Origin: a virus
Direction: 5' to 3' (one strand)
Virus record (IMG/VR): IMGVR_UViG_3300044627_002262
Location: 1 to 62,281 of that record
Length of the DNA stretch: 62,281 bases
Part shown: piece by piece, positions 4,070 through 60,458 of the stretch
Numbering within the stretch: position 1 is the first letter of the stretch
Layout of the letters: every line of letters begins with the position of its first letter
The notes under the pieces: model-generated
What the model saw: only the letters and a program-made list of their open reading frames with translations
The model's database searches: none
What the model was told of the DNA's origin: nothing
Translations under genes and position numbers: made by a program

Positions 4070-5071
4070 CTATTTCTTCGACTCTGTGAGTCGAGCGTTG
4101 TTTTTAGTGTAGATTGCCTGCTCTGCCTGCGGGAAGTATCCGCGAGGTTCTGCCCACTCGCGTAGAGTCTCTCCTTTAATGTCATCGCCAATGAGTCTGG
4201 CGATTTCGAGGTAGGTAGCCTGTGTAGCTTGTGCTGCCTCGGCAACGACAGCAATCGGGAATGTCTCGCTATCCTTCACCTTGATCATGCGGAACCCGTT
4301 CACGGGAGTTCCTGCCTCAAGCTGACGCTTTGCCTCGTCCTTTGCCCAGTCCCATAGTTCCTTCTTGAAAACATTAGCCTTCTTCAAGAATGCTCCAAGT
4401 CTGGCAGGGTCTGCCGACAACTCGGCCTTGATGGTATCAATTGATACCTCCTGCGACACGATTGCCTGCGTCTCGGTGACTGGGCCTACGACCTCAACAC
4501 AAGTCGAGCGATTTTTACACCACCCGCAGTACTGGCAACTCTCTGGCTTTTTGTTCGGGTCGGTAGCTTTTGCCAAAATTCGTTCAACGATTGCCTTTGC
4601 TTCCAGAAGGGTGAAGTGATGGGTAACCACTGTCCTCTGGTCAGTGAATAGCAGGTGGAATGTCCACTCGTCTGCGAATTCGCGTTCCATGTTCCCGTAG
4701 GAGTATGCTGCCGCCTGCGCCTCGTAATCGTATATCTGCCCTGTCTTGAAATCGAACGAAGTGCAAATCCGAGATGCTCTGGCATCCTCGGTTCCTTCAT
4801 GCGTCATGCCCGGCGTTACGACCTTGAGCTTGGCTTCGTCGGTCTCGACATTCGCTCCATTGGCGAGTCGCAGGAGTTCCTCAACCCCCCAGAGTGCGGC
4901 ATCAATGTCCCGTTGTTCTGTCAGGTCATTGATTGCCGATTTATCTCCAGCGAGCATCCTGCGTTGCACCCCGTCAATTTTGATCCCCCTGCCTGCCGCA
5001 GGGTTTTTACCCCCTGCGGACTCGAAACAAGGACAAGCATCGAGCTTTGGTAGCGATGAGTGCCTGATCAC
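4070..5071 (-). CDS. PD-(D/E)XK nuclease with four-Cys cluster (Cas4/RecB-like)
   Basis: 333 residues. The nuclease signature is DFKTG (D107, K109) followed by YEAQAAAY (Q119). A Cys set of C13/C15 at the N-terminus and CQYCGWCKNRSTC (C179, C182, C185, C191) matches the iron-sulphur staple of Cas4, AddB and phage RecB-type exonucleases. Its ATG overlaps the RecT stop (5068), so it is the probable exonuclease partner of the annealase, resecting dsDNA ends to give RecT its single-stranded substrate. No CRISPR array is present, so a Cas4 adaptation role is unlikely. Confidence 0.8.
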   Translation of the reverse strand: MIRHSSLPKLDACPCFESAGGKNPAAGRGIKIDGVQRRMLAGDKSAINDLTEQRDIDAALWGVEELLRLANGANVETDEAKLKVVTPGMTHEGTEDARASRICTSFDFKTGQIYDYEAQAAAYSYGNMEREFADEWTFHLLFTDQRTVVTHHFTLLEAKAIVERILAKATDPNKKPESCQYCGWCKNRSTCVEVVGPVTETQAIVSQEVSIDTIKAELSADPARLGAFLKKANVFKKELWDWAKDEAKRQLEAGTPVNGFRMIKVKDSETFPIAVVAEAAQATQATYLEIARLIGDDIKGETLREWAEPRGYFPQAEQAIYTKNNARLTESKK

Positions 5072-5886
5072 TTGATTGCCTCCAGTGCTGCGCCAACGAA
5101 CTTCTCTGGCGTTGCCTTGATGCGAGTGAGAAGGTCTCCCTCTTCAAGGTCGCGCCATGTCTGTCCCTCGGCAATCTTCGACTTTTCGATCAAGAATGCA
5201 TTTACTGCCGCCTCGTTTGCCGATAGCAGACCCTGCCAGTCTGTGTCCTCGACAACCTCTGCTACCTCGGCTGGAGTCGGTACTACCTCGACCACTGCCT
5301 CGACTACCTCGGTTGTCTCGACCAGTGCTGGTGCTGGTTCCGATTTCTTACGCTTTGGCTTGTCCTCTGCTGGAGTCGCAACAACTGCAACAGGTGCTGA
5401 TGGAGCGAAGTCCTGAACTTCTTCGGGAGTATAAAATCCCTGCAATACTGCTGGGTATACGCCGCGCACTCCGTCAGAGATAACACGGGCGCGGAGCATC
5501 TGCCTTGGGTATTTTTTCCAGTTATCTTTACCACCAAGACCTGCCGCTTTAGCGCGATTCATGTCCCAGTCCACCTTGAGACTGCCGCCAGAAGGGTGGG
5601 AGAATGTACCGCTGACGCATTCGTCGGTGTACTCATGCCATTCCACCTTGCCATTGGCCGACTGGAAGCGAGCGAGGATTGCGTCTGCCTTCAAAGCTGG
5701 GCGACCCTGAATAATATGGTACTCGCTGGCTACAGTGCCGGGGTGACGACCCTCTGCCTGCGCGATAATCATTAGACTGACTGCCTCTTCGATCTTGCGG
5801 ATACCGAAAAGACCTGATTTGACGAAGTGGTTTGCCATGATTTCCAGTTCGGAAATCGGTTGCTGGGATTGTACTGCGAGTTGCAT
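5068..5886 (-). CDS. recT: RecT family single-strand annealing protein
   Basis: 272 residues. The first 175 show the RecT core: ELEIMANHFVKSGLF, EEAVSLMIIAQAEGRHP, a substrate-like YHIIQGRPALKADAIL segment, and WKKYPRQMLRARVISDGVRGVYP. The rest is a low-complexity Ala/Val/Glu/Pro linker (PAPALVETTEVVEAVVEV) and a helical tail. RecT anneals single strands during phage recombination and replication. It is coupled to the nuclease gene downstream; an SSB-like protein is at 59884..60450. The start is preceded by an A/T-rich AAAATAGAAAAAATAAATAA leader. Confidence 0.88.
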   Translation of the reverse strand: MQLAVQSQQPISELEIMANHFVKSGLFGIRKIEEAVSLMIIAQAEGRHPGTVASEYHIIQGRPALKADAILARFQSANGKVEWHEYTDECVSGTFSHPSGGSLKVDWDMNRAKAAGLGGKDNWKKYPRQMLRARVISDGVRGVYPAVLQGFYTPEEVQDFAPSAPVAVVATPAEDKPKRKKSEPAPALVETTEVVEAVVEVVPTPAEVAEVVEDTDWQGLLSANEAAVNAFLIEKSKIAEGQTWRDLEEGDLLTRIKATPEKFVGAALEAIK

Positions 5887-6033
5887 TTATTTATTTTTTC
5901 TATTTTGGTTGGTTTGTTTTGGTGGATAGACAGTGCTGCGAAACTTCGGAGCAATGTCTGGTAGTCTGCGAATGATTCGCAGGTATGCTTCTGGAGGGAG
6001 ACAGGTCTGGTGGTTGCGTTCGGTTGCGCTCAC
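5887..6033 (-). CDS. Small hypothetical protein, GTG start
   Basis: 48 residues (MSATERNHQTCLPPEAYLRIIRRLPDIAPK...) from GTG 6033, which overlaps the TGA of the upstream membrane peptide (GTGA). It ends directly against the recT ATG, and its last codons form the A/T-rich recT leader. Basic and proline-containing, with no recognised family. The coupling and lack of any other use for the stretch support it, but it is short. Confidence 0.45.
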   Translation of the reverse strand: MSATERNHQTCLPPEAYLRIIRRLPDIAPKFRSTVYPPKQTNQNRKNK

Positions 6034-6152
6034 TTGTTCCCTCCTATGGTAAGGAGGGTGGTGAGTATCAGTAGAAGTCCTACTGGGCCGAAAATTTTGA
6101 CTGCCTCCCAGCAGTGCTGGAGCGTTACAGTCAGGGGAATTTCAATGTTCAT
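6030..6152 (-). CDS. Small single-pass membrane protein
   Basis: 40 residues (MNIEIPLTVTLQHCWEAVKI, then FGPVGLLLILTTLLTIGG and NK). Residues about 21-38 form one hydrophobic membrane segment. The ATG lies about 8 bases downstream of the -10 of the promoter-like element at 6160..6188, so its mRNA would be almost leaderless. It overlaps the next GTG. Function unknown; early location argues against a holin. Confidence 0.55.
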   Translation of the reverse strand: MNIEIPLTVTLQHCWEAVKIFGPVGLLLILTTLLTIGGNK

Positions 6153-6159
6153 ATTGGTC

Positions 6160-6188
6160 AATATCGAGCAGGTTGGGTTTTGCGTCAA
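6160..6188 (-). promoter_or_regulatory. Conserved early promoter/operator element, copy D
   Basis: On the minus strand TTGACG (6188-6183) is followed by a 17-base spacer containing AACCCAACCTGCT and then GATATT (6165-6160). Upstream is an A/T-rich ATAAAAAATATTA stretch. The block TTGnn...AACCCAA(G/C)C plus AT-rich upstream sequence recurs at 7940, 10160 and 10785, always between genes. This copy is the most divergent in its -10. It would drive the membrane peptide, recT and nuclease. Confidence 0.55.
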
Positions 6189-6197
6189 TAATATTTT

Positions 6198-6446
6198 TTA
6201 TAGCCACTCGTTGGTCGCCAGACCCTGTGCCAATGCCCATCTGGTGAGGTCTGCCGTGTTTCTGAATCCGTATTTTTTGTGCAAGTGATCGCGATGTTTT
6301 TCGACAGTCTTGATGCTGATACCGAGACCAGCACCTACCTCTGCATTGGTGAATCCGCTGGCGATTAAGCCTGCAACTTCGCGTTCCCGTGGAGATGCTG
6401 GATTGTGATTTTCTGGAGCGAATAATTTTTGAATGAGATTTTTCAT
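6198..6446 (-). CDS. Stand-alone LuxR/GerE-type HTH regulator
   Basis: 82 residues from ATG 6446 (MKNLIQKLFAPENHN...). Residues about 20-75 are a complete LuxR-type four-helix DNA-binding domain: PREREVAGLIASGFTNAEVGAGLGISIKTVEKHRDHLHKKY, interrupted here only for naming, with the typical NAEVGAGLGIS-TVEKH recognition helix. There is no receiver or autoinducer domain, so it acts like GerE, as a constitutive DNA binder. ATGA overlap with 6443..6661 fixes the start. Its gene lies directly before promoter copy D; it is the best candidate to read the repeated operator elements. Confidence 0.85.
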   Translation of the reverse strand: MKNLIQKLFAPENHNPASPREREVAGLIASGFTNAEVGAGLGISIKTVEKHRDHLHKKYGFRNTADLTRWALAQGLATNEWL

Positions 6447-6661
6447 TTTGTGATGTTGATTGGAGTTACGATTCCGTTTTTTTGAGACGCGAGTTCCTGT
6501 GCATTTTTTAAATCCTGAACAACGATTTCCTCGCACGGGGCGAGGTGATAAACTCGCCTGAAACGATTCTCTGTTGTCCATGCTTCGTACTCGCAATCTT
6601 TCGTTACAACTGCCCACCCGCTATCGCAGGTTGCGTCTTTGTCGTTGAGTTCTTCATTCAT
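6443..6661 (-). CDS. Hypothetical early protein
   Basis: 72 residues, with two or three cysteines (ATCDSGW, KDCEYEAW, APCEEIVV) and mixed alpha/beta pattern. Family not recognised. Coupled by ATGA overlap to the LuxR-type gene downstream, which suggests a shared regulatory role, but this is only positional. Confidence 0.65.
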   Translation of the reverse strand: MNEELNDKDATCDSGWAVVTKDCEYEAWTTENRFRRVYHLAPCEEIVVQDLKNAQELASQKNGIVTPINITK

Positions 6662-6673
6662 GGTGATGGTAGA

Positions 6674-6695
6674 GGCGAGGGATTGCTCCCTCGCC
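6674..6695 (-). terminator. Perfect intercistronic hairpin without U-tract
   Basis: GGCGAGGGA (6674-6682) and TCCCTCGCC (6687-6695) form a perfect 9-base stem with a TTGC loop, directly after the DUF932-like gene. There is no T-run on the minus strand, so it may protect or attenuate the transcript instead of being an intrinsic terminator. Confidence 0.5.
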
Positions 6696-6705
6696 CCTGA
6701 TTTAA

Positions 6706-7491
6706 TCAGTTGAGCAGGTACTGCTCAGTGAGGTTCCAGAGTTGCTTGTTTACCTTTAGGTCTGCTGCTGGAGCGGACAGTTTGCGGATGCCAGAACCGG
6801 GGCGACCTTTGGTCAGGTTCTCCTGAACTCGGTTGAATGTAGCCCATAGGTTGGTTCCACCATCAGCGTAACGCCGCGCACGATTGAGATAGAACAAGCG
6901 GGTCTCCCATTCGCGACGATCAAGGTACTCCCCGTCTGCCTCTGGTTGATCATAGCGGAGTTTGAGCGCATCGATCAGGTACTGCTTCTGCGAAGCGTCT
7001 GTCAGTTCTTTCTGGCGAAACAATTCAACTCGCTCGACCAGTTGTGGCACATTGCTACGGAGTTCGTTTGCTGCCGTGATGAAGTGATTCACATCAGTGT
7101 TGCGGTGGTAGACTTTCAGGGTTTGAAAGATGTCACCTGTGACCAGTCCATTTAGGCAGGCGAAGACTCGCAGACCGAGGGACAGTTGAGCCGAGGAAGT
7201 TCCGTCATGCGAATTTATGAGGACGAATTCTGGAGCGACCTCGCCGCCGATATTGGTGATATCGCGATGCTGGAATTTGATGATGTGTTTTTGGAACCCG
7301 CGATTCTCATCCTTGCGGACTTTGCCGTACTGGATTTGGCGAGGTTCGTATCCAGACTCTCCGAGAGCATTGACGATCTCTTGAGTGCTGATGAATCCGT
7401 AGCGAGTGCTGCGGGTCGGTGCGGCATGGACTGCCGTGATTGGGTTCGTGTTTACGAGTTCAGTTTCGAGTGTTGGGATGATGATGTTCAT
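6706..7491 (-). CDS. DUF932-like phage protein
   Basis: 261 residues. The motifs TRYGFISTQEIVNALGESGYEP, KHIIKFQHRDI, VLINSHDGTSSAQLSLGLRVFACLNGLV and the helical C-terminus match the DUF932 family of phage and plasmid proteins. Function of that family is not established; it is usually encoded in early or conjugative-transfer regions. The gene is single, well preserved and the longest of this early cluster. The leader has AACAAACAATCAACATAGAA-type sequence without Shine-Dalgarno. Confidence 0.75.
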   Translation of the reverse strand: MNIIIPTLETELVNTNPITAVHAAPTRSTRYGFISTQEIVNALGESGYEPRQIQYGKVRKDENRGFQKHIIKFQHRDITNIGGEVAPEFVLINSHDGTSSAQLSLGLRVFACLNGLVTGDIFQTLKVYHRNTDVNHFITAANELRSNVPQLVERVELFRQKELTDASQKQYLIDALKLRYDQPEADGEYLDRREWETRLFYLNRARRYADGGTNLWATFNRVQENLTKGRPGSGIRKLSAPAADLKVNKQLWNLTEQYLLN

Positions 7492-8194: not shown

Positions 8195-8442
8195 GATTGC
8201 TGCTCCTCCTGCGCCTGTTGTTTTGCGAATGCCTCTGCCTCTGCTTCTGTAGCGTGTTCTGGGTATGCCTCACGCTTCGCGATCTCTTCCAGCAATGCCG
8301 ATCCTACCAGCAATCGAAACGCTAATGCGCGAGTGTTGCTGACGAGGTCTGCGAGAACCTCGGATGCCTTGAGGGTCTTAAAGTCAATTTGTTTCAGCAC
8401 TGCGTCGAGTGCTTCCTGTGTTTTTGTGTCTGTATCAATCAT
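8191..8442 (-). CDS. Hypothetical helical early protein
   Basis: 83 residues, all helical: TQEALDAVLKQIDFKTLKASEVLADLVSNTRALAF, then a Glu/Ala/Gln-rich tail (EHATEAEAEAFAKQQAQEEQQS). No catalytic motif or family recognised. The start overlaps the stop of 8435..8677 and the stop overlaps the following GTG. Confidence 0.65.
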   Translation of the reverse strand: MIDTDTKTQEALDAVLKQIDFKTLKASEVLADLVSNTRALAFRLLVGSALLEEIAKREAYPEHATEAEAEAFAKQQAQEEQQS

Positions 8443-8677
8443 ATTTATTTTCTTCTTTGCGCTTCAGCATTGCTTCAGCGTCTTGATATGCGAGGTCTGC
8501 TACTATGTCGGGATGTTCCTCCGAATACTTTTCGGATGCCCGATAACCGATCAATGCCATTGCTGCGAACCAATCACCGATTGCCATCCCCGTGTTCGGA
8601 CGAACGCTGGGGTTCTTGGAATCGCCCGGATATCCCTGAACAGGGAATGCGGGATGGTTGTTGGTATGCTTCGGCAT
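8435..8677 (-). CDS. Hypothetical early protein
   Basis: 80 residues (MPKHTNNHPAFPVQGYPGD...GMAIGDWFAAMALIGY, then a helical end with Glu/Lys). The pattern HPAFP...GMxxRDWFAAxAL resembles a widespread small phage protein family in which a GMTLRDYFAAKAL-like core is common; its role is unknown. Transcribed after two hairpins in the intercistronic gap. Confidence 0.7.
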   Translation of the reverse strand: MPKHTNNHPAFPVQGYPGDSKNPSVRPNTGMAIGDWFAAMALIGYRASEKYSEEHPDIVADLAYQDAEAMLKRKEENKYD

Positions 8678-8717: not shown

Positions 8718-8749
8718 CAATCGACCTCATAACGGAGTCAGGTCGATTG
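8718..8749 (-). terminator. Perfect 10-base hairpin at gene end
   Basis: CAATCGACCT (8718-8727) pairs perfectly with AGGTCGATTG (8740-8749) around a 12-base loop, spanning the stop codon of 8727..9323. The coding end (PIDLTPL) is part of the stem. There is no U-tract. Confidence 0.45.
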
Positions 8750-9323
8750 GAAATGTGGTTGGCGCGGATGAGAGGTCATCGATTCCGATTGGCTTGCCTG
8801 CAAGAATCCACTTCTCGTATGCCTCAAGCGAGTAATCGCTCAATGCCTTCGCCAGAAGGCGAGATGCCTCTTCATTGTTGCGAGGCGCGACAATCGATAG
8901 TGTCCAACCGCCACGCTCGTTGATTGCTCCCCAACGGACATGGTCAAATGGAGCGACATCATCGATTCCGACAACTTCAGATACTCGACCATCGTAAACG
9001 CCACGCTTGATCTTTTTGGCCTCCAGTGCGGCGATCACTTCTTCAGGACTGCCAAGTCCATTAGACTCGCCACAGATCGATTTTAAGAAGGAAGATACCC
9101 GCTTGATAGCGGACAGTGATTTTGTGCGAATGCGGATGTTTCCTCCGTACCAGTCTCCTGCTCCTTTGTGGGTTTGCCACTGAAGATCAAAGTCGGTATT
9201 ACTGCGTCCGAATTGATCGTGCCTCCAGTGCGACTCGATAATCTCAATGTTGATGTGTTCATACTCGGCACTGCTTTTGGTGCGTGAGATGCGATAGTAG
9301 GTTTTGGATACTTTGTTTTTCAT
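8727..9323 (-). CDS. Hypothetical early protein
   Basis: 198 residues with mixed alpha/beta pattern. Notable segments are EYEHINIEIIESHWRH, WYGGNIRIRTKSLSAIKRVSSFLKS, VVGIDDVAPFDHVRWGA and a helical C-terminal EEASRLLAKALSDYSLEAYEKWILAG. No known family recognised. The leader is AACCTCAACCATCAATAAATAAATACC before ATG, the recurring A/T-rich early leader. Confidence 0.7.
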   Translation of the reverse strand: MKNKVSKTYYRISRTKSSAEYEHINIEIIESHWRHDQFGRSNTDFDLQWQTHKGAGDWYGGNIRIRTKSLSAIKRVSSFLKSICGESNGLGSPEEVIAALEAKKIKRGVYDGRVSEVVGIDDVAPFDHVRWGAINERGGWTLSIVAPRNNEEASRLLAKALSDYSLEAYEKWILAGKPIGIDDLSSAPTTFPIDLTPL

Positions 9324-10375: not shown

Positions 10376-10729
10376 TTAAATAATTTGAGCAAGTGACCAA
10401 TAGAATCTGGCATCGCATTCAAGTTGATCTGCCTTTCCAATGCGGAGAGCAACAAGGGAATTGTGATTCCACGCTTTTGTTCCAAGTCCTTTTTCTTGAC
10501 GAATGGTTGCGGCAGAAGCATCAAGTTTTTTCGACCTTTGAATCAATTGCTCTTTTGTTGCCGCATCACTTTTCCATGATTTCAAGATTTCTTTAGCCTT
10601 GGATAAATCCCAAATCACTTGTGGGAAAAGATTGGATTTGTATTCGCGGAGTTCAGCAAACCCAGCGTCATTGTGGATACGAAGAACTGTTTTGGTTTTT
10701 TTGTTGATGTAGGTTTCTGTTGTTTTCAT
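10376..10729 (-). CDS. Hypothetical early protein
   Basis: 117 residues from ATG 10729 (MKTTETYINKKTKTVLRIHNDAG...). The open frame reaches 10837, but that start codon lies inside the conserved promoter block B, so the shorter start is preferred. Contains SKAKEILKSWKSDAATKEQLIQRSK and a C-terminal aromatic stretch. No family recognised. It would be the first gene of the leftmost early transcript. Confidence 0.65.
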   Translation of the reverse strand: MKTTETYINKKTKTVLRIHNDAGFAELREYKSNLFPQVIWDLSKAKEILKSWKSDAATKEQLIQRSKKLDASAATIRQEKGLGTKAWNHNSLVALRIGKADQLECDARFYWSLAQII

Positions 10730-10784
10730 TTTTGGATTTTTAATTTGTTTTTCGTCGTCGGCGTTGTGCCTCCGATCTGCGAAC

Positions 10785-10812
10785 ACATTACCAAACCCGC
10801 TTGGGTTATCAA
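10785..10812 (-). promoter_or_regulatory. Conserved early promoter/operator element, copy B
   Basis: TTGATA (10812-10807), a 16-base spacer ACCCAAGCGGGTTTGG and TAATGT (10790-10785). The spacer holds the perfect dyad AACCC-AAGC-GGGTT. Upstream is ATAAAAATATTTC and a TATGACA block also present at copy C, and the downstream leader shares GCCGACGA with copy C. The 10730-10888 gap contains only this element, its flanks and, on the plus strand at about 10877, one more AACCCAAGCAG. Confidence 0.65.
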
Positions 10813-10888
10813 GAAATATTTTTATCCGTTGTGTCATAGTAAAAACATTTTTGCTTGACGCTTGATCAAAAACCCAAGCAGTCCGTAG

Positions 10889-10915
10889 ACCCGCATGAAT
10901 ACTCGCTCTGCGGGT
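10889..10915 (-). terminator. Hairpin 3' of the tRNA, possible late terminator
   Basis: ACCCGCA (10889-10895) and TGCGGGT (10909-10915) form a 7-base stem with a 13-base loop immediately after the tRNA CCA end (one base shared). On the minus strand a GGGTTTTTG tract follows about 15 bases later. It lies at the end of the late transcript and before the early promoters, so termination or tRNA 3' processing fits. Confidence 0.45.
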
Positions 10916-10988
10916 GGTTGCAGGACAAGGAGTCGAACCTTGAACTTCAGGTTATGGGCCTGACGAGATACCTTTTCTCTATCCTGCG
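10915..10988 (-). tRNA. tRNA-Met(CAT), initiator (fMet) type, CCA encoded
   Basis: A complete cloverleaf is read on the minus strand: acceptor CGCAGGA/TCCTGCA, D arm GAGA-AAAGGTA-TCTC, anticodon arm TCAGG-CCCATAA-CCTGA, variable AGTT, T arm CAAGG-TTCGACT-CCTTG, then ACCA. The first acceptor pair is a C1/A72 mismatch, the hallmark of bacterial initiator tRNA, and A73 plus CCA are encoded. Two of the three G-C pairs that mark initiators are kept in the anticodon stem (29-41 is A-U). Position 33 is C instead of the near-universal U. An elongator Met or Ile2 tRNA would be expected to pair 1-72. Confidence 0.88.
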
Positions 10989-10992
10989 GAAA

Positions 10993-11148
10993 TTATTTTT
11001 TGCGAGATGCTGCGGCTTTTTTCGCCTTCGCTTTGCGTTGGATACTGTACGCAATTGCGGCAGCTTGCGCTGGCTTTTTGCCTGAACGAATTTCAGCCGC
11101 GATGTTGCGGTCAAAACAATTTTGCGAAGCGCATTTTCGAGTCGGCAT
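10993..11148 (-). CDS. Small basic phage protein
   Basis: 51 residues (MPTRKCASQNCFDRNIAAEI, then RSGKKPAQAAAIAYSIQRKA and a Lys/Ala tail). The GKKPAQAAAIAYSxxRKAK pattern is common in short basic proteins encoded among phage virion genes; they may bind DNA in the capsid. ATG is 2 bases after the stop of the 3483-residue gene; the tRNA follows after 4 bases. Too short for length-filtered gene calling but well supported by position. Confidence 0.65.
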   Translation of the reverse strand: MPTRKCASQNCFDRNIAAEIRSGKKPAQAAAIAYSIQRKAKAKKAAASRKK

Positions 11149-11150
11149 AG

Positions 11151-14100
11151 TTATTTTTTAGTTTCACCAGTCAAATTGGACAAGGTCATTTTTGCTTTCT
11201 CCAATGATGCCTGAAGTTTTTGCTTTGACTTCTCATCGGTAGCAGTAGCCAATTCGCGTTTAAATTTCGCGACCTTCAACTCTGCTTCTTCCAGTTTTTT
11301 TTCTGCTGCGTTTTCGTCATCTTCTGCTTTTTTGCGAGCGGCAAGCAATGCGACATACTCTTCTGGAGTTTTTGCATTCTGCACACCTGTCAATGCCACT
11401 TCTTCTTCAGGAGTGAGAAGACGAACAATTTCTGTTCTCTTTTTGCCGTCCACTTCAACCAACCGATTAACTTTGAATAGCGATGCATATGCCATGATCT
11501 CGTCCACATTGTCGGCGGCATCGGCATAGTCTGCTGGTTCCGATCCCGAAACTTGCGCTCCGTACAATCCAAACAATTCTTTTTCGTTGTACCAAAGTGC
11601 GGCTTGCATATCTGCGATGGTGATATCGATTCCTTTTCTGCGAAGTTTTTTCTGCGCGATCTCCATCACATCTTGCTGGAAGTCACGCTCCAGATCGGTT
11701 CTCGGAGCGGCAACTGGGTCAGTGCGATTTTCAACCCAGTTCTTTGCTGCTCGTCGCAAGTCGCTTTTAGCTTTGTACTGCCCCTTGCGATACCTGTCCT
11801 CAAGTGCTGTTGCCAACTCCAACATTTTTTGAGGGTCTGCCAGCAACTTGTCGAGTCCATCTCTCGATATGCCGTCCAACTCTGGCTCGTTCATGTAATC
11901 GAAAAACTCTTTTTCGCCATCTTTGTTTATTCGCTTCAGAAGAGGCTCAAATTTCTCGCCAGCACTATTTGCGGAATCTGATCGATACTGCTCCAGAATA
12001 GATTTTCTGAAAGTATCATATTGATTCGCTTCCTTCAGTGGTGCGTGTTGGAAAACATTCCCAAGAATTCTATTCCATGTACGGGTGAACCACAGGTCTG
12101 CCGTGAGCGTTGTGTAGTCGCCATGCAGGTTATTGATGAACGATCCGATCTTAGGCCCAAACACGCTAAACCCAGTCACCATCTGGTCTGCCTGTCCATC
12201 AACTGTTAGAGGCTTGCCTTTGAACCAGAGATTTTTGTTTTTCTTAAAATATCCGTTCCATTCCGAAACAGTCATTTTTTTCCTGAACAATTTATCGAGT
12301 GCCTGAATCCCGTTGTTTTTAATCAACTCATCGAGCTTCAAAAGATTGTTTTCAATCGCACGGGTTTCTCCTCCAAATGTGCCGTACAATTCGTCTTTAA
12401 TCTCTGGCAGTGTCTTTCCGCTTTCGAGCAGGAACTGCACCCTTGCTGCCATCTTTCCGTTCTCAAAAACATTGTTGCCTTGCGATGCTATGCCAAGCAC
12501 CGAGTCAAAGATGAATTCTTTGTCTGCATCGTATGTAGGAGTTCCACGATTCAAGAATGGGAAGAACTCGGAATACTTTTGCTTCATCTTCTTCAGAGCA
12601 GTGTCGTACCACCCGATTGCGTTCGGTGCTTCCGGGTTCTTTGCTGCTCGCTCCATATGCCCTTGGATTTCGTCAACGATTGTCTCGGCAACGATCTGTC
12701 CTGCTCTGGTGCTGTAATCGCCGGGTTGAATGAACCCATCGTCTGCACTGCGTTTCTGCAATGCATACATCAGGTCATTCACCGAGGTCTTCAGCCTGCC
12801 GCCTTTCGTATAGTACGATTCAGGCACTGTGAACTTCTCTGTGCCATCCAGAATTGGAGTCACAGATCGGCTCAACCCACTTGTGGGGTACAACTGCTCT
12901 CGGATGTAATCCGCAACCTCCTGACCTAATCCGTAGCGTTCTGCGAATCGGTCTGGGTCGAAGGTGAACCCTTCTCCTGCGAGGGATTTTGCGTACGGGA
13001 TAAGAACTGAATCGATACCCCTTCGGAGTAGTATGGGGAATCCTCTGGCAAGTCTGGTATCTTGCTGTATTGCCTTTGGAATTCCTCCCTGCTGATCTTG
13101 TGTATTTTCTTCATTTATTGATTCTCCTTTTATCCAATCTGGTACTTTTAGACTTCCATCATCTGCTGTAAAGTCTGAAGTCGTGTCATAGTAAAATGAA
13201 TCGACAAGAGTTTTATTGATATTTTTGATGTTTGATGCTTTTTGAATTTCAATAAGTTTGTCTTCAAATTTATCAATATTATCAAAATTTGCTGCCTTGA
13301 TGCCCCTTCCATCAACAGTCACTGACAACCCGTCAATACCCACTTCTTTTGCTTTTTTAAAGGCATTGAGTATTTGCTCTTCGGTTAGTTTTTTGTCATG
13401 GACAAGGTAGACAGATGGTGCGCCTTCGGTTAGTCCAATACTTGGTTTCCATGCGATGCCAGCATCCTGCGTCATCAAGACTGACAACCACTTTGTGACC
13501 GACTGCGACTGCTCCCATGTCATGTTTGGAGCGGAGAAAACAAAACTTGGTTCAGCCTCAAATTTCCATGTACCAAGAATGTTGTCGAATTGGATGCCAG
13601 TGAGTCCTGCCGCTTCAGCAATAAACTCTTTGAATTTTTTGGTCTTGAAGAGCGTTGCGACTGCCCCCTGAAGGGATTTTAGCCCGACACTTACATCTTG
13701 TTCTTGTTTCTTTACAAGAGCGACATACGCTTCGTATGCGGCAAGGTCTTTTGCGTATTTAGCTTTATCTTCTTTTGAAGCATCCTGCGGTATATCGGCA
13801 GGCTTCTCGACAGGAACAGGCACTTCTCGATTGTCCACTGGGAACTTGAATGGCGCAGGAACCATGCCCCGATTCATCAAGTTTATTGACCTTGTCAATC
13901 GGTCAACCTCGGCAACCTGTGCAGCATCATTCAAAGTAAAATCCCGATCTGGATTTTCCATGAACTCGTTTAGCAAGTCGGCTATTTCTTCCGACCTTTG
14001 GATGTCATCTTGGGATTTATCTTCTTTATTTTTGATATCGATATTTTCCCAATAGAGATTGCCGATATCGAGTAGTGCATCTCGTTTTTTGTTCAACTCA

Positions 14101-17100
14101 TCATTGCGAGGAGTCAACACTTCAATCAGGTACTTTTTTCGATCCTGCGATAGTTCCAATGTGGGAGTGAGATCGGCAACTGTGGTGTACCCAAATCCGT
14201 ACTTGCCGGGCTTGCCGCCGATCACCACAGAGAAGTCGCCAGCATCTGCCTGCATCGTCCTCTCAACGGGAGTTGGCTTCTTCGGCAGTACAACCATGCT
14301 CAATGGTTTTTCAACCTGCTGCTGCTGTTCTGGAGCGGTTGCTTCGCTCAATGGCAAGCCTTCGCCTGCTGGCATGAATCGAATGTCTAACGAGGTAGTC
14401 TGGAACCTCTGCGAGAGAGGGATTACATTGCCTTCGCCATCGTATGTTACTGGGTCTGCTGATTTGATTTGCTCTGGGTTAAATACAGCATAGTTGATTG
14501 GTGCGCCCATCCCATCAGTTACACGAATAGCGTCTTGACCTCTTTCTTTTGCTTTTGCGATAGCGCGAACTTCATCATATGAACGAACAATTCCTTTTCT
14601 AACATTTTCAGCCTTTAAAAATACAGGCATGACTTTCCCAAAAACAGATGCTTCGTTTATATCTGTTGCTACAAAAATAGCACCACCAAGAGCAGAATTA
14701 GGTTCAAAAACATTAAATGGAGATTGTGATCTTGTTCCGTGGAATCCTTTAATATTATATCCAGCCCTCTTTGCCGCCTCATCCACCATCTTCTGCAACT
14801 GCGATTGGTTATCCTCTGGGTTTTTGGCAAAGTTGAGGTACTCTGCATCTGACACTGCTGGCATGAACTGCAACTGCCCTGCACTGACAACTTTTGCCAT
14901 CTCTGGGGTGATGTTTACTCGCCAGATTGGGGTTTGTTTAGATTCTGGTGCTTTATTATATGCATTGAAATCTTCGTAATCAGTTGGTTTGCCTTTTGGA
15001 GTTTCTATTTCAGACTTCTCAACCTTGCCCCCCATCTTGCCAACATATTTACCGATCTCTTTTGGAAGGATTTGATCGTAGAATCCTTTCATGCCTTCGC
15101 CACCGACTTTAAGGTCTGCATTTTCAAGGACGCGCCACCCGTTTTTATCTTTTTCTTGCGCTAAAAGTTTTTGAGCGGTTTCTTTTCCAATATAATCTGC
15201 TAATTTATCAGGGGTAATTCCAGTTTGAATGATTGGCATTTCTCTTCCCTTTTCGCCAGTTAACCTTCCCCCTTGTTTGTCTTCATTGTATTCGATGCGA
15301 TCAATCTGCTTACTCAAATCATATCGTTCAGCTTGCGTGTCTCCAACAGTCCAACCGATCCATTGCTTGCCTGACTCTACGGCATCGCGCAATGCGCGTT
15401 TAAAGAGTTGTAGTGACCAATCTTTTCGGAATGGCGCGTCTGGGATACCTTCTCTTAAAGTTGTATTTCTTGCTTGTCTTGCTTGATTCCTCAAAGAATT
15501 AAGTTCTGTTAATAAATCAGGGGTGAGAGGAGTTGGTGCTTCATTATTCAGATACTCCATACGAGCCTGTTGCTCGTTTGTTAAATCTTCAAAAGATTTA
15601 TCTTCCAAATACCCCTTCTCCCTTCCTGCCTGATGCCTGTCAGACTGCAATTCTTCGATGAACAATCCATCGTTGCCTTCAGCATCTGTGCGCTCATTCA
15701 AGCGCATATGCGCTACATAGTTGTGAACATTTGGGAAGTGGGATGAGGTGTATTCTCCAGCGCGGTTGAAGCGTGAGCGCACTTTATCCATCGCCTGACT
15801 GCGTTCTTGTGGTGTCCAAGATTCCCACTGTTTGCCAGCATCCATCTTAGCCTGATCCTCAATGTCTGATTCAGCGATTCCGCGATTTTTCTCTGGCATT
15901 GCCATCACAACTTCACGATAGTTTTCACCACCGGAGAGTTGGTATTTAGCGTATTTTGGAGCAGGTAATTTTGATGCGTTATCTATTGCATTTTGTAATG
16001 CGAATGGCAGTTCATCAAATTCAAGTGGATCATCAAACTCGTCGTAAAATGCTGCCTCACCATATTGATCTTCAATTTTTATTCTATAGGTATCAGCAAT
16101 ATCTTTAACCGAAGCATCTTCTCCAAGTGTCACTTCTTCAAATTTGACCTGACCTTCGTTGCGAAGATAGTCCATCAGTTCAACCACAGGAACCTTGCCG
16201 TTGTTCTCGCCTGCGAGTCGGTCAATGGCATCCAGTACGCCTGACCATTTGACCTCTTCCTGCTTCACATTCTGCGGGTTCGTAATGACTGCCTTCAACT
16301 GCTCTGGCGTTGCTGTTGCGCCTTGGAATTTGCGTTGGATTTCTGTTTGCAGTTTGCTCTTGAATCCACGCTCGCCAGATGGTGCTTCTGCAACTGCTGG
16401 CATGAACTGCGTGATCGGGCCTAACGATTTATCACCTTTATAAAGAATCTTAATCTTTGAATCATCAAAGATAACATAATTATATGTTTTTGGAACACTT
16501 GTTATTTGTTCAGCAGTAAGTCCAATCTGTTTTTGTTTGGTTTGAGTTATCCTATCAGTAAATTTAATACCATCGAATCCCATCGCTTTTAATTGCATGG
16601 AGGCTTCTTTAGGATTACCAATATATTCGCTTAATGCATCATAATAATCTCCAACTGTATCAATTCTAACTGGGAAAGCAGTGTCTATTTCAATATTTTT
16701 TTTCAAATCGTCTACTTTATCTCGAAGTCTTGAGTCTATATTGCTATTCCAATCAAGAATTTTATCTTCATCTATATCAAGATCAACTTTATATTGATAT
16801 TGAAGAGGAACAAATTTATCTATTTCTTTTCTATTCTCTGCAAAGTAAAGACCCCATCCATACACTTGTTCTTTATTCCCAGAATTAATAAAGTCTAAAT
16901 TAAATTTATCAAAGTCTGCTCTTGATGCATGGAATGCAGGCAGGTATTGCAACCCAGCAGGCGCAACAACTGCGTTTTCAAATCGAGTTCCACTCTGGAT
17001 GCGATCTTTGAGCGATTGGCGATATTGCATCACATCGTTTGCTGCCGCCACGATTTGCTCGTCAGTGATATCCGGCGAGATTTGCAATGCGCCTGCTTCG

Positions 17101-20100
17101 TTCACAACGCTACGGATGTACTCTGGAAGCGTCTGGGTTGCGTTATCGACCCTGCCTTCGTTGTAATTGTCCACTGCCGCCAGAATGAGGTCTTGCGGAG
17201 AATTCATCATATCCACCTCGGTGGTTTCTGGTGCTTCTACGATCTCCTCGGTTGCTGCCGCCTGATCTTGTGCCTGCGATTCCAGTTGCTGGTAGATTTT
17301 TTCCAGTTCGGTTTCGAGTGCTGGAATGATCGGACTACGACCCCCGTCTGCGTAGAGTTGATCGAGTTTGGATGAAAGTACCTTGGCGATGTCTTGCGGC
17401 GGCACAGTGCCGTCCTGTGCGTCCAGAATAGCCAATTCTGCCTCGGTCTCGGCATCGATGTCCGAAACGATCTCCTCTGGTTCAAGCGAGGCGACATTTT
17501 CAGGGTCAAACATCGACACGATCTGAATCCTCGGCATCTGGTCTTGTCCCTGCACCAACTGCAATGACTCGGTTGGGAGCAAATCGTCCATCTGGCGCAA
17601 CTCGCTTTCGAGTGCATCAATCTCGCCAGTTGCCATTGCGCGGCGAACACGGGTAGCAGTGACGCTACCATCGAATCGGTTCTGAACCTCCTCGGCAGTC
17701 ATCGGTGCTGCCATCGGGTTAACCGCTGGCATATAATTTGTGGTTAGGTAGCCATAATTTATCGGCAACTTTTGCGAGGGTGACTCCGAAAAATTATTGA
17801 TGCGATCAAGCCGACGAGACCGAATTACAATGTCAAGATTGTCTTTGCCTCTTGCCCTTGGAAGTGTGCTGCGGTCAGGGTTGGATTCTTTGGTCTCTGC
17901 GTTGTATGCATTGAAAAGATCGTTGATCTTATTCTTCATTTTGCCTGCGATGTATGCGTCAGGATGAAGTCCAGTCTCGCCTTTTTCGCCCCTTGAATGA
18001 TTATCAAGTAGCTTTATTAAAGAGTCCCAGAATGCACCTGTATCGCCATTCCAAGGTTGCAAGTTCTCTGGCTTTTTATCTGACCACGCTTGCATTTTAT
18101 CGTATAGGCGACTGATAGAAATTGTGGTGAGCGCAAAGTTGCCGTCCTTCGTGAGTTGAAACCCGATTGGCACTTCATCGCGAATTTTTGGAGAGAGTGC
18201 TTTGTACCTGCCATTCAGCAGTGATGCTTGGTACTCCATGACAACGCGAGTGCCATCATTCCGCGCCATGAGTTCGTTGAAAAACTTGGTCATGCGCTTC
18301 AGGTTTGGCGAAACCACTTCGTTTGGCAGTGCCATGAATGCCTCGATTTGAGCGGGAGACATAACCCCTCGATAGTTTCCATTTCCAGTGTCTGAAAGTC
18401 TAATGCCAGACCCGTCGTCTTTCGCGGAATCAATCGCATTTTGGATAATTTCTGTCCGCTTCCTTGCGCGAGCTTTCATCTCACGATTTGTCAAGATAAT
18501 CGGACTGCCGTCTGGTTTTCGAGCAATGCGCGTGTCGGTCTCAAATGTAGTTCCGTCTGGCATCGAGCCAAATGTAATTTCAGGCCCAAGTGTCACCACA
18601 TTGCCATTGGCATCGACCAACTGACCCCCCTGCGTCCTGTATACATCAACGAATGGATCAATTTTCGCACCAGCAGGAACAACGATTTCGGTGACACTAC
18701 CATCAGGCGCAGTCGCTTTGATGATCTGCTCCTTCTCGAAAAAGTCTGCGTGTCGATATTTATTTTGGAGCGCAACACTGCCCAGAACCTTGGTCAACGG
18801 AATGTCTGGTTCATCGGATTCGCGACTCTGCTGGACAGTCATTGTGCCGTCAAAATCTTTTAGACCTCTCTGGTACTGACGCACCATTGCAAGCGTCTCT
18901 GGTGACATCTGCGCTCCAAGAACAGAAGAGTATCCACCAGCATTGTCAAAAAGGATTCCGTTTTTTCGGAGCGTCTCTTTCAGTTGCTTCAGCCTACCAC
19001 TTTTGGTCTTGACCTCAAACCAGTCCATGACATTGCGACCAACATCATCGAGCGATGCGCGAGTTCCACCTGCATACTCGCCAGTGGCAGCAGCAGTCTC
19101 TGCAAGAATTTCGTCTTTGATGTACGCTCGCATCTTCTCGACCTCCCCGCCGAATTGAGCGTAGAAACTCGCCCCATTGTCGCTCGGAGACATCATCTTT
19201 GCGTACTGCGTAGCGTACCTGTCCAAGTCTTCGTCAGAGTAAATTCCCTGCTGGTAAACCTCGACACTACCATCATCGTTTTTGATTTTCTGGTCGAACA
19301 ATTGACCACGCAACGGAGCGAGCATCTTGTTTACTTCTGCGAACTGTTGCACTGCGTGTTGAACCTCATGCTGGAGCGTGTGGCGCAAATTTAGACCCTG
19401 CGAGGTCATGTGCTTGATTAGGTCTGCATTGATTACAGCAGTTGCTCCCTGCTGGTTGATTCGGCGCAAATGTGGAGGAACGAATCCCTCTGAATTCGGG
19501 TCAGCATTGTCTTCCTGCAATGCGAATCCACGCGCAGATTTTGCGCCTTCAACATCGTTCTGGAACTTCTGCAAGAGTTGCCGTGCCTCAGTGAGCTTTT
19601 GACTGTCAGTCTCGGTGAGAGATGGAATGCCAGTGAGCAGATTGATAGTAGTCTCTGCTTGTTTCAATGAGTCACCATAAAGGTCACGGAAAAATTGATC
19701 AGCGTTTGCTGGATCAAGAACGGCAATTTTAACTCCGCGAAGTCCAGCAACTCCACCTGTGGATTGTGCAAGATCGTATGCGTCAATGAATGCGAGTGCG
19801 GTCTGGCGAGTTGCCTCTGCCTGCGTTTCTGGAGTTGATTTGGAAAGTGCTTCCCGTTGCTTCAGGAACCCGTCAATCTGTTTTTGATCAAAGGCAGCAT
19901 CTTCTGGGTTGATTTGAGCGTCTCGCTTCTTTTCGAGACTTGCAATGCTGGTCTCGATTGCTGCTTTGCGACTCTCGATGTTTGATAGATCGGCAATGTT
20001 TTGCTGAATCTCTGGAGATGCTTGCGCCATGAACCGCTTGATATCGGCATCTTCATCGCGGCGATAGGCAGCAGGGTCTGGAGTGACAAGATTGGTGATC

Positions 20101-21602
20101 TTTTCTGCCATCGTCGTGCGAGGATCAATCAGTCCACCAATTCGCTCGTACGATCTCGTCCCTGCCAGACTGCCAATGCCAAATCCTGTTCCAGCACTGA
20201 ATCCGAGGTCTTCTGCCGTCTCGATGTCTGGCAGACCCATTACGACATTCATCGCGGCAGCATTAATGCCCGGTTGAATCAACGCATTCGATTGGCGAAT
20301 CGTCCAGTCGGCTAACTTTGCTCGCGCAACTCCACCTTTTCCTTGCGCCCCAAAAAGTTTTTTTGTCAGGTCACTGGAATCTATTGCTTGCCCTGCTCGC
20401 TCAACCATTCCCCTTCTTCCTGCCGTTCCGGCAATGTCAGCTTGCTTTGTGATGTCCTTGATCACCCTTGCAGTTGCAGAAACAGGTTTTGCAACGCTAA
20501 CAACGGGTAGGATTGCAGTGTTTACAGTACCTTTGATCCAAGTGTCTGGATCATTTATTGCGTACTCGCCAATTTTTTTTGCGCCAGTCTGAAGAAGTTC
20601 AGTTCCCTGAAGGACTTTGTTTGCGGCGTATTCAGTTCCTGCCGCAAGTTTGGAAGTGCCTTGCATTGCAAAGTCTCCTGCCTTGTTCATTACTGGAGCG
20701 GTTACTTTGGAAAGAGGCTTTAAAACTGCTCCGCTCAACCTGCCTCCACCGGGGATAGCCACAGGTGAAACAAACTCTCCCAGCGCAGAAATATTCTGGT
20801 TGATCTGGTCTTTAGTAAGACCCTGATCAAGCATGGTCTGGATATAGTCTTGCTTTACTTTTTCGACTTCTTCAGGAGACAATCCCATCTTCTTTGCCTC
20901 GTACTCAACATATCCCTGAATCAGCGGATTTTGAGAAAGAAGTGCGGCAACTCGGTCTGGATTTTGTTCTGTTTCTTGAGCTTCCAACTGACGCATGGTT
21001 TGTCTGTTTTGCCATGCTCGGAAGCGTTCTTCTTCACTTTTCCCAAACAATTTGTCAGTAGTAGCACTGCCAAACATTCCAAATCTAACAGCAGCATTTA
21101 CTGTTTCTTCAATATCTTTTGCTGCACCAATTCCAAGAGACCTAATTGCCTCTTCGCGTTCTTTAAATACTTTCTTTGCCTCTTCTGAATCTAAACGACC
21201 ATAGCCTCCAGAAAGTGCAAAAGCAGCAGGCTGAACAACTGCTTTGTTTGCTAACTCAACTGCGCCTGATGCAGTTTGCCCAATGATATCTGCTGCTGCT
21301 GGAATAAATGCTCCTACTGCACCAGATGCTTTGTCCGCAAGACTGCGTTCGTCTTCTGCTTTGAACAGTTTCCGTTGGAGTTTGTCAGATAACTTAACCC
21401 CTTCAGACTGCATCTTCTTGATTTCATCGATGCTTAAATCGTCTTCTAATTTAATGCCTTCTGGAACTTCTTTAAATGACTTGGGAGGTTCTAATACAGC
21501 ACCTTCTGGTATTTCTTTAAATGACTTGGGAGGTTCAGGTTCCAACCCGATAACTTTAACTCCTTCAGGTGGTTCTTTAAACGATTGTTGCGGTTCAGCC
21601 AT
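11151..21602 (-). CDS. Giant polyvalent virion/ejection protein (zincin, two ART-like domains, LPD)
   Basis: 3483 residues, one sixth of the genome. Order: three SFKExPEG repeats (1-50); Ala/Gly-rich hydrophobic helical region (60-500); a zincin-type metallopeptidase motif HEVQH (745-749); unknown region to about 1290; an ADP-ribosyltransferase-like domain beginning FHASRADF and containing YGWGLYFAEN (about 1555-1725); a phage-typical large-polyvalent-protein domain (GENYREVVMAMPE...LFIEELQSDRHQ...RAGWTVGD-like, about 1890-2235); a second ART-like domain beginning GFHGTRS (about 2280-2400); and a long C-terminal region. The motif [FY][ML]PA recurs at 1291, 1554, 1734, 2247 and 2410, at domain boundaries. 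Such proteins are packaged and injected to act in the new host. Its last-of-the-virion-block position matches T7 gp16-like genes. It is not an N4-type RNA polymerase: no polymerase motif is seen. Confidence 0.85.
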   Translation of the reverse strand: MAEPQQSFKEPPEGVKVIGLEPEPPKSFKEIPEGAVLEPPKSFKEVPEGIKLEDDLSIDEIKKMQSEGVKLSDKLQRKLFKAEDERSLADKASGAVGAFIPAAADIIGQTASGAVELANKAVVQPAAFALSGGYGRLDSEEAKKVFKEREEAIRSLGIGAAKDIEETVNAAVRFGMFGSATTDKLFGKSEEERFRAWQNRQTMRQLEAQETEQNPDRVAALLSQNPLIQGYVEYEAKKMGLSPEEVEKVKQDYIQTMLDQGLTKDQINQNISALGEFVSPVAIPGGGRLSGAVLKPLSKVTAPVMNKAGDFAMQGTSKLAAGTEYAANKVLQGTELLQTGAKKIGEYAINDPDTWIKGTVNTAILPVVSVAKPVSATARVIKDITKQADIAGTAGRRGMVERAGQAIDSSDLTKKLFGAQGKGGVARAKLADWTIRQSNALIQPGINAAAMNVVMGLPDIETAEDLGFSAGTGFGIGSLAGTRSYERIGGLIDPRTTMAEKITNLVTPDPAAYRRDEDADIKRFMAQASPEIQQNIADLSNIESRKAAIETSIASLEKKRDAQINPEDAAFDQKQIDGFLKQREALSKSTPETQAEATRQTALAFIDAYDLAQSTGGVAGLRGVKIAVLDPANADQFFRDLYGDSLKQAETTINLLTGIPSLTETDSQKLTEARQLLQKFQNDVEGAKSARGFALQEDNADPNSEGFVPPHLRRINQQGATAVINADLIKHMTSQGLNLRHTLQHEVQHAVQQFAEVNKMLAPLRGQLFDQKIKNDDGSVEVYQQGIYSDEDLDRYATQYAKMMSPSDNGASFYAQFGGEVEKMRAYIKDEILAETAAATGEYAGGTRASLDDVGRNVMDWFEVKTKSGRLKQLKETLRKNGILFDNAGGYSSVLGAQMSPETLAMVRQYQRGLKDFDGTMTVQQSRESDEPDIPLTKVLGSVALQNKYRHADFFEKEQIIKATAPDGSVTEIVVPAGAKIDPFVDVYRTQGGQLVDANGNVVTLGPEITFGSMPDGTTFETDTRIARKPDGSPIILTNREMKARARKRTEIIQNAIDSAKDDGSGIRLSDTGNGNYRGVMSPAQIEAFMALPNEVVSPNLKRMTKFFNELMARNDGTRVVMEYQASLLNGRYKALSPKIRDEVPIGFQLTKDGNFALTTISISRLYDKMQAWSDKKPENLQPWNGDTGAFWDSLIKLLDNHSRGEKGETGLHPDAYIAGKMKNKINDLFNAYNAETKESNPDRSTLPRARGKDNLDIVIRSRRLDRINNFSESPSQKLPINYGYLTTNYMPAVNPMAAPMTAEEVQNRFDGSVTATRVRRAMATGEIDALESELRQMDDLLPTESLQLVQGQDQMPRIQIVSMFDPENVASLEPEEIVSDIDAETEAELAILDAQDGTVPPQDIAKVLSSKLDQLYADGGRSPIIPALETELEKIYQQLESQAQDQAAATEEIVEAPETTEVDMMNSPQDLILAAVDNYNEGRVDNATQTLPEYIRSVVNEAGALQISPDITDEQIVAAANDVMQYRQSLKDRIQSGTRFENAVVAPAGLQYLPAFHASRADFDKFNLDFINSGNKEQVYGWGLYFAENRKEIDKFVPLQYQYKVDLDIDEDKILDWNSNIDSRLRDKVDDLKKNIEIDTAFPVRIDTVGDYYDALSEYIGNPKEASMQLKAMGFDGIKFTDRITQTKQKQIGLTAEQITSVPKTYNYVIFDDSKIKILYKGDKSLGPITQFMPAVAEAPSGERGFKSKLQTEIQRKFQGATATPEQLKAVITNPQNVKQEEVKWSGVLDAIDRLAGENNGKVPVVELMDYLRNEGQVKFEEVTLGEDASVKDIADTYRIKIEDQYGEAAFYDEFDDPLEFDELPFALQNAIDNASKLPAPKYAKYQLSGGENYREVVMAMPEKNRGIAESDIEDQAKMDAGKQWESWTPQERSQAMDKVRSRFNRAGEYTSSHFPNVHNYVAHMRLNERTDAEGNDGLFIEELQSDRHQAGREKGYLEDKSFEDLTNEQQARMEYLNNEAPTPLTPDLLTELNSLRNQARQARNTTLREGIPDAPFRKDWSLQLFKRALRDAVESGKQWIGWTVGDTQAERYDLSKQIDRIEYNEDKQGGRLTGEKGREMPIIQTGITPDKLADYIGKETAQKLLAQEKDKNGWRVLENADLKVGGEGMKGFYDQILPKEIGKYVGKMGGKVEKSEIETPKGKPTDYEDFNAYNKAPESKQTPIWRVNITPEMAKVVSAGQLQFMPAVSDAEYLNFAKNPEDNQSQLQKMVDEAAKRAGYNIKGFHGTRSQSPFNVFEPNSALGGAIFVATDINEASVFGKVMPVFLKAENVRKGIVRSYDEVRAIAKAKERGQDAIRVTDGMGAPINYAVFNPEQIKSADPVTYDGEGNVIPLSQRFQTTSLDIRFMPAGEGLPLSEATAPEQQQQVEKPLSMVVLPKKPTPVERTMQADAGDFSVVIGGKPGKYGFGYTTVADLTPTLELSQDRKKYLIEVLTPRNDELNKKRDALLDIGNLYWENIDIKNKEDKSQDDIQRSEEIADLLNEFMENPDRDFTLNDAAQVAEVDRLTRSINLMNRGMVPAPFKFPVDNREVPVPVEKPADIPQDASKEDKAKYAKDLAAYEAYVALVKKQEQDVSVGLKSLQGAVATLFKTKKFKEFIAEAAGLTGIQFDNILGTWKFEAEPSFVFSAPNMTWEQSQSVTKWLSVLMTQDAGIAWKPSIGLTEGAPSVYLVHDKKLTEEQILNAFKKAKEVGIDGLSVTVDGRGIKAANFDNIDKFEDKLIEIQKASNIKNINKTLVDSFYYDTTSDFTADDGSLKVPDWIKGESINEENTQDQQGGIPKAIQQDTRLARGFPILLRRGIDSVLIPYAKSLAGEGFTFDPDRFAERYGLGQEVADYIREQLYPTSGLSRSVTPILDGTEKFTVPESYYTKGGRLKTSVNDLMYALQKRSADDGFIQPGDYSTRAGQIVAETIVDEIQGHMERAAKNPEAPNAIGWYDTALKKMKQKYSEFFPFLNRGTPTYDADKEFIFDSVLGIASQGNNVFENGKMAARVQFLLESGKTLPEIKDELYGTFGGETRAIENNLLKLDELIKNNGIQALDKLFRKKMTVSEWNGYFKKNKNLWFKGKPLTVDGQADQMVTGFSVFGPKIGSFINNLHGDYTTLTADLWFTRTWNRILGNVFQHAPLKEANQYDTFRKSILEQYRSDSANSAGEKFEPLLKRINKDGEKEFFDYMNEPELDGISRDGLDKLLADPQKMLELATALEDRYRKGQYKAKSDLRRAAKNWVENRTDPVAAPRTDLERDFQQDVMEIAQKKLRRKGIDITIADMQAALWYNEKELFGLYGAQVSGSEPADYADAADNVDEIMAYASLFKVNRLVEVDGKKRTEIVRLLTPEEEVALTGVQNAKTPEEYVALLAARKKAEDDENAAEKKLEEAELKVAKFKRELATATDEKSKQKLQASLEKAKMTLSNLTGETKK

Positions 21603-25018: not shown

Positions 25019-25290
25019 AAATTCTCCTTTCTCCTCGCTTCTTTGCAAAGTTCTGAACCAACAACAAAATTAGCACATGATTTAGGTCGATTCGGATAGA
25101 CCATGCAACAAACAGTCTCGCCAACTTTTCCTTCCAAAGCGATGCATCTGTTGTTGTTTGTTTTCATTAGCGGGTAATCCTCTCGCTGCATTTCCACAGG
25201 GATGCCTGTTGCGTCTGAACGATCTCTTCGGAGAATCGGCCATGACCATTTAAAACAACAACACGCGCCACAGGTTTGACAGTCATACAT
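25006..25290 (-). CDS. YkgJ-type Cys-cluster protein
   Basis: 94 residues from ATG 25290 (MYDCQTCGACCCFKWSWPI). The C4-x2-C7-x2-C10-C11 signature followed later by CIAL, CCMVYPNRPKSC and LCKEAR matches the YkgJ family of predicted zinc/iron-chelating Cys-cluster proteins. The ATG overlaps the stop of the PAPS-reductase-like gene (25283), so the pair forms a unit. The family is sometimes linked to modification of other proteins, but no reaction is established. Confidence 0.75.
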   Translation of the reverse strand: MYDCQTCGACCCFKWSWPILRRDRSDATGIPVEMQREDYPLMKTNNNRCIALEGKVGETVCCMVYPNRPKSCANFVVGSELCKEARRKENLWVE

Positions 25291-60450: not shown

Positions 60451-60458
60451 ATATTTAT

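Follow-up and report, generated by a model that had tools for sequence, protein, structure and literature searches.

A phage-encoded initiator-type tRNA-Met with C33, kept at a fixed genomic position in a phage family

The tRNA gene and its surroundings

The stretch of DNA analysed here, referred to as 'the window', is a 62281-base virus contig that has no repeats at its ends, and its main genes all lie on the minus strand. Because the gene order of relatives joins the gene at 1292-2050 to the genes of 58-61 kb, the window probably represents a circularly permuted genome opened at an arbitrary point. The only tRNA gene that ARAGORN calls in the window, at 10915-10988 of the minus strand, is a tRNA-Met(CAT). 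Its strand sequence is CGCAGGATAGAGAAAAGGTATCTCGTCAGGCCCATAACCTGAAGTTCAAGGTTCGACTCCTTGTCCTGCAACCA, which divides, 5' to 3', into CGCAGGA TA GAGA AAAGGTA TCTC G TCAGG CCCATAA CCTGA AGTT CAAGG TTCGACT CCTTG TCCTGCA A CCA. A covariance model agrees: the tRNA scores 56.6 bits with RF00005 of Rfam (E 1.5e-9), well over the gathering score of 29. Folded alone, it is predicted to form a cloverleaf of -21.8 kcal/mol (z -2.3).

The anatomy of the tRNA, which we regard as established, is that of an initiator. C1 (position 10988) faces A72 (10919) in an acceptor stem whose other six pairs are good; the anticodon, CAU (10956-10954), is accompanied by A37; and A73 (10918) is followed by an encoded CCA end (10917-10915). 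Every base that had been named at the outset as an initiator hallmark—C1 and A72, A73, CCA, and the GG-CC pairs of the anticodon stem—is present. Set against the feature list for bacterial initiators (PMC7949028), the phage tRNA shares with bacterial tRNA-fMet the CAU anticodon, the 1:72 mismatch, G30-C40, G31-C39, A37 and A73, as well as A11-U24, G2-C71 and C3-G70, pairs that together assist formylation (PMC7949028). It differs in having A29-U41 (A29 at 10961, U41 at 10949) rather than G29-C41, so that two of the three G-C pairs expected in the anticodon stem (30:40 and 31:39) are present and the third is not, in having C33 (10957) rather than U33, and, in the phage form that we call type A, in a short D-loop. 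The encoded 3' end is ACCC or ATTT, instead of ACCA, in some relatives. Phages unrelated to the window phage, namely Pseudomonas phage D3, Komagataeibacter phage phiKX1 and Streptomyces phages, have annotated tRNA-Met genes that are 77-81% identical over most of their length, a comparison of overall identity only.

Directly 5' of the tRNA is the gene for a 51-aa basic protein, MPTRKCASQNCFDRN... (10993-11148, minus strand). In most relatives, whichever of the two tRNA types they carry, a homologue of this protein is encoded immediately upstream of the tRNA (usually so in the loci whose flanks were compared), and homologues are also retained in relatives that have no tRNA. The 5' boundary of the slot is the gene for a giant protein of 3483 aa (11151-21602, minus strand) with an ART-PolyVal (ADP-ribosyltransferase) domain at residues 2284-2383. 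The giant protein is probably virion-associated; in size it is similar to the polyvalent virion proteins that enter the cell along with the DNA, and its gene is mosaic among relatives. Elsewhere in the virion gene region, at 25283-26131 (minus strand), is a PAPS-reductase-like domain that scores just under the Pfam cut-off.

On the other side, the tRNA is followed by a non-coding 3' trailer (10838-10914, minus strand) with two predicted hairpins. Its sequence is strongly conserved in the relatives with type A, or short-D-loop, tRNAs; it matches no Rfam family, and a simple scan found no terminator right after the tRNA. The first ORF beyond it, of 153 aa and with no Pfam match (10376-10837, minus strand), starts the early-gene side. 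The early module (4070-7491, minus strand), which forms the 3' boundary of the slot in relatives, comprises an exonuclease-like gene (4070-5071), a RecT-like annealing protein (5068-5886), a LuxR/ECF-type helix-turn-helix protein (6198-6617) and a DUF932 protein (6706-7491), all on the minus strand. The LuxR-type protein, with its similarity to ECF sigma factors, is a possible regulator of phage gene expression. The tRNA thus lies, as the preliminary description had placed it, at the boundary of late and early genes: between the giant virion-type gene with its 51-aa neighbour and a set of small ORFs that lead to the DUF932, RecT-like and exonuclease-like genes. This position is conserved, since wherever flanks were compared the order is the same: giant gene region, tRNA, and then the homologue of the gene at 8435-8677, DUF932 and RecT genes.

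The phage family and its likely hosts

Relatives of the window phage were collected by means of a conserved virion protein (27657-29804), which matched 209 stretches in viral contigs; 80 were kept and 44 of these records were scanned whole. More relatives were reached via DUF932 and by pattern. By these three routes, at least 17 phages, the window included, were found to have an initiator-type tRNA-Met, and among 14 records of at least 60 kb, 9 have it (window and U33 form counted). The anticodon loop is CCCAUAA, with C33, in 16 of the 17 phages (the window, L278/L511, L509, L510, L512 to L517, L522 and L524 to L528, L278 and L511 being one record, G440), and these 16 hold nine distinct tRNA sequences. 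They fall into two types, A and B, that are 74% identical to each other. Type B tRNAs (L522, L524, L526 and L528) have U1·U72, and two of them, L522 and L526, have A29-U41. Phages with DUF932 proteins only 37-40% identical still share orthologues of the tRNA.

The seventeenth tRNA, from phage G026 (L523, 5686-5762), occupies the orthologous slot and is a divergent tRNA-Met with U33 in the loop UUCAUAA, U32, U31·G39 and a mismatch in the D-stem; its U1·U72 is kept. It represents either an alternative solution or early decay. Three relatives (L518-L520), which the DUF932 tree places near phages with the tRNA, have no tRNA in the slot, and the tRNA is therefore dispensable in some lineages. The description of the tRNA as solitary holds within the window and does not extend to the family. 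Five relatives (G032, G041, G440, G443 and G444; loci L086, L087, L532, L537 and L540) also encode a tRNA-Leu(UAA), located either well away from the initiator slot or next to a tRNA-Met of elongator type. G440 also has a separate second tRNA-Met; because this one has a paired acceptor end and U33, elongator and initiator roles appear to be divided between the two.

The pattern of change within the tRNA indicates what has been kept. Stem pairs were counted over ten distinct sequences on an alignment that was adjusted by hand, with the cloverleaf in mind, because the columns of the aligner failed to line up the T-stems of types A and B. On this alignment, all ten orthologues have a mismatch at 1:72 (C·A in 4, C·U in 2, U·U in 4), where neither a Watson-Crick nor a wobble pair occurs. 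Pairing at each of the other 20 stem positions holds in nine or more of the ten, and at 11 of these both partners have changed together (e.g. 27:43 is U-A, G-C or C-G; 29:41 is A-U, U-A or G-C). G30-C40 and A11-U24 are invariant (10/10), G31-C39 is present in 9/10, and 29:41 is A-U or U-A in 9/10. Because the stems vary by compensation while 1:72 stays mismatched, we conclude from these alignments that the tRNA is maintained as an initiator. Selection for an initiator would be expected to leave a 1:72 position that varies without ever pairing; such a pattern is expected neither from decay nor from an elongator role.

We infer that the window phage infects an aquatic bacterium, likely one of the Verrucomicrobiota or a related PVC bacterium. 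Of the cellular initiators compared, the closest to the type B tRNAs are an Omnitrophota C33 initiator (94.6% identity) and a Verrucomicrobiota U33 initiator (93.2%), and when U33 genes were parsed at Verrucomicrobiota loci, 26 of 32 had U1·U72 (one gene is cut by an N). Counting against this assignment, U·U initiators occur also in Omnitrophota, in TA06 and in a Clostridia MAG, and for the window tRNA itself, a type A tRNA with the C·A mismatch, identity to the cellular initiators compared does not exceed 81%. An alphaproteobacterial host, the first guess from A29-U41, was dropped, as the U·U mismatch of type B matches initiators of Verrucomicrobiota or other PVC type. Among named isolate phages, the best match to the window RecT is Verrucomicrobia phage P8625 (33.5% identity). 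Isolate relatives were found neither by megablast nor by tblastn with the virion protein or the terminase, and a search for a related prophage in 387 Verrucomicrobiota genomes gave one weak match (26%) to the conserved virion protein, with no other window gene there. A glycosyltransferase (55338-56459, minus strand) is 67% identical over its full length to the enzyme of Synechococcus phage S-CAM7 and its relatives; since neither the virion protein nor the terminase leads to an isolate relative of this phage, a recent exchange of the gene is probable. The tail protein matches a wide range of phages, SPO1-like phages included. Both matches, as probably exchanged genes, were set aside as evidence of the host.

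Pair 29:41 and position 33

Two bases had been singled out as departures from the initiator norm, A29-U41 and C33, and they fare differently. To judge the former, initiators were sought with the pattern CTCGNNRGGCTCATAACCY, in which G29 and A29 are both allowed, in 59 genomes from the phylum to which a Victivallales MAG belongs, taken from the name of the MAG to be Verrucomicrobiota. All 57 sites found, in 51 of the 59 genomes, have A29-U41, and all read CTCGTCAGGCTCATAACCT. In viral contigs, too, A29-U41 is the majority form: in an unbiased sample with either pyrimidine at position 33, 51 of 79 parsed initiator-type genes have it (~65%) and 28 have G29-C41, although some of these genes may be host flanks or misparsed. 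The pair is hence not an oddity. At 29:41, none of the matched Verrucomicrobiota sites keeps to the hallmark of three G-C pairs, and its strict form does not define initiators of the likely host group. Unusual initiators from mycoplasmas are named in a reference of PMC7005279.

C33 is truly rare. Position 33 is U in nearly all tRNAs, and the base immediately 5' of the anticodon is C in just 3 of the 79 viral-contig initiators (~4%), in 8 of 288 Verrucomicrobiota genomes (all eight with U·U and A29-U41) and in 5 of 97 Omnitrophota genomes. If the host phylum is as we suppose, the phage base differs from ~97% of its initiators; apart from C33, nothing about the tRNA looks unusual for the group that probably contains the host. 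C33 is by no means confined to phages, an idea that we considered and rejected, since native C33 initiators exist in many bacteria and in DPANN archaea. They were found also in Patescibacteria, Elusimicrobia, Phycisphaerae, Weissella/Leuconostoc and Erysipelotrichaceae, and metazoan initiators (Met-i) with C33 have been described (PMC9023262). The phage tRNA resembles these metazoan, minority bacterial and DPANN examples in carrying C33 in an initiator context; it differs from them in belonging to a phage family, and in that C33 is retained while the stems diverge. C33 in these phages is rare and conserved, and what sets the case apart is its retention in a phage family, not C33 itself. Because the phages are related, its presence in 16 of them reflects conservation after few origins, not sixteen events.

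Possible roles of the tRNA

Our preferred reading, to which we give a probability of roughly 0.68, is that this is a working accessory initiator tRNA of a family of ~60-kb phages, probably of Verrucomicrobiota or close PVC hosts, that supplements or replaces the initiator pool of the host. The tRNA would be transcribed together with the surrounding genes and trimmed by host tRNA-processing enzymes, its CCA being already encoded in the window phage. It would then be charged with methionine and formylated, and be used in the P site beside, or instead of, the host initiator. A single initiator match was found in 46 of the 51 matched Verrucomicrobiota genomes, which makes it probable that few genes supply the host pool; a phage-borne copy would enlarge this small pool, or stand in for it if lost, so that initiation would not become limiting during infection. 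Use of the tRNA during infection is also suggested by its fixed genome position together with the same rare base throughout the family. Counting against this reading, some relatives do without the tRNA, and no gene for peptide deformylase, a conceivable partner, was found among the subset of window ORFs scanned. Phage tRNAs are usually discussed as supplements to codon usage. An initiator tRNA reads start codons, and so this explanation cannot apply here.

Other accounts of the gene as a whole appear much less probable. A passenger gene—one that used to be an attachment site, that signals processing between operons, or that is a decaying host gene—would be in keeping with the fact that tRNA genes are common attachment sites, with the conservation of the 3' trailer, and with the absence of the tRNA from some relatives. 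The tRNA is, however, complete, uninterrupted and in the same slot in distant relatives, it shows compensatory change in all its stems with the 1:72 mismatch preserved, and no integrase was found among the subset of window ORFs scanned; we consider this account highly improbable. Scarcely more probable is the proposal made in the preliminary description, that an altered initiator tunes the choice of starts towards phage mRNAs that lack Shine-Dalgarno (SD) sites or are leaderless. The lack of SD sites on which it draws is real. A core SD string at -20 to -5 occurs at 15 of 68 predicted gene starts (22%), which is no enrichment over the 22.6% at internal ATGs or the 19-21% at random positions. 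A/T strings such as AATAAATA, by contrast, occur in 29% of window leaders versus 7% of random positions; leaders of this kind stand directly before many starts (e.g. 5887-5911, 8724-8750 and 60451-60475) and are a candidate SD-independent translation signal of the family. The connection to the tRNA is what fails. Relatives without the tRNA share both features, with SD sites at 3 of 18 starts (17%) and A/T leaders at 28% against a background of 7%, albeit in a small sample (n = 18). Since they have the same leaders, the leaders are independent of the phage tRNA, and the lack of SD sites does not explain it; as a reason for the tRNA, SD-less initiation was accordingly rejected on this small sample. 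Moreover, 59 of the 68 predicted starts are ATG, an ordinary choice of start codon, and A29-U41 is the norm of the phylum.

The role of C33 within the preferred reading may lie in descent from a C33 host lineage or in protection of the anticodon loop. Simple inheritance from such a lineage, without a function particular to phages, has slightly less than an even chance in our estimation. Native C33 initiators exist in Verrucomicrobiota, Omnitrophota, other bacteria and DPANN archaea, and the closest cellular tRNA to type B is the Omnitrophota C33 initiator. Against inheritance, C33 is a minority state (3-5%) in both phyla and yet is found in 16 of the 17 phages, across two types only 74% identical, albeit in phages that are related and do not count as independent events. 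A more speculative idea, and a rather unlikely one, is that C33 protects the phage initiator from a host VapC-type nuclease specific for the anticodon loop of tRNA-fMet, making initiation possible after the host pool has been cut. We take model NF010285 (PRK13725) to be the tRNA(fMet)-specific VapC family; homologues occur in 11 of the 59 Verrucomicrobiota genomes, the best at 133 bits, and none reaches the curated cut-off of 143 bits. tRNA-fMet is a reported VapC target: the enteric enzyme cleaves it between A38 and C39 (PMC4105405), and it is a target also of VapC of Leptospira and of Bosea VapC (PMC8522696). Evasion of such nucleases has already been proposed for anticodon-loop changes in phage tRNAs (PMC10264068). 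If the host phylum is as supposed, the window tRNA would be like those tRNAs in that a loop base differs from the commonest host form; it is unlike them in that C33 is found in some cellular genomes as well. L523, which lacks C33, has U32 and U31·G39 instead and so differs precisely at the A38/39 junction, a single case to which we attach little weight. C33, however, lies 4-5 bases from the reported cut site and is carried by some hosts themselves, we found no literature data on cleavage of a C33 substrate, and phages of S. flexneri are reported generally to avoid tRNA-fMet among the tRNAs that they encode (PMC10264068). That the family keeps C33 because the loop resists a host tRNA-fMet nuclease, as a phage rescue of translation initiation, we hold to be unlikelier still. 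If true, it would mean rescue of initiation through tRNA-fMet, a target reportedly avoided by the phages of VapC-bearing S. flexneri.

Whichever account of C33 applies, the family offers a clean natural case for asking why a phage needs an initiator of its own, be it for dosage, for replacement after host attack, or for something else. The case rests on a fixed position, and on an initiator mismatch and a rare loop base that are kept while the rest of the tRNA drifts.
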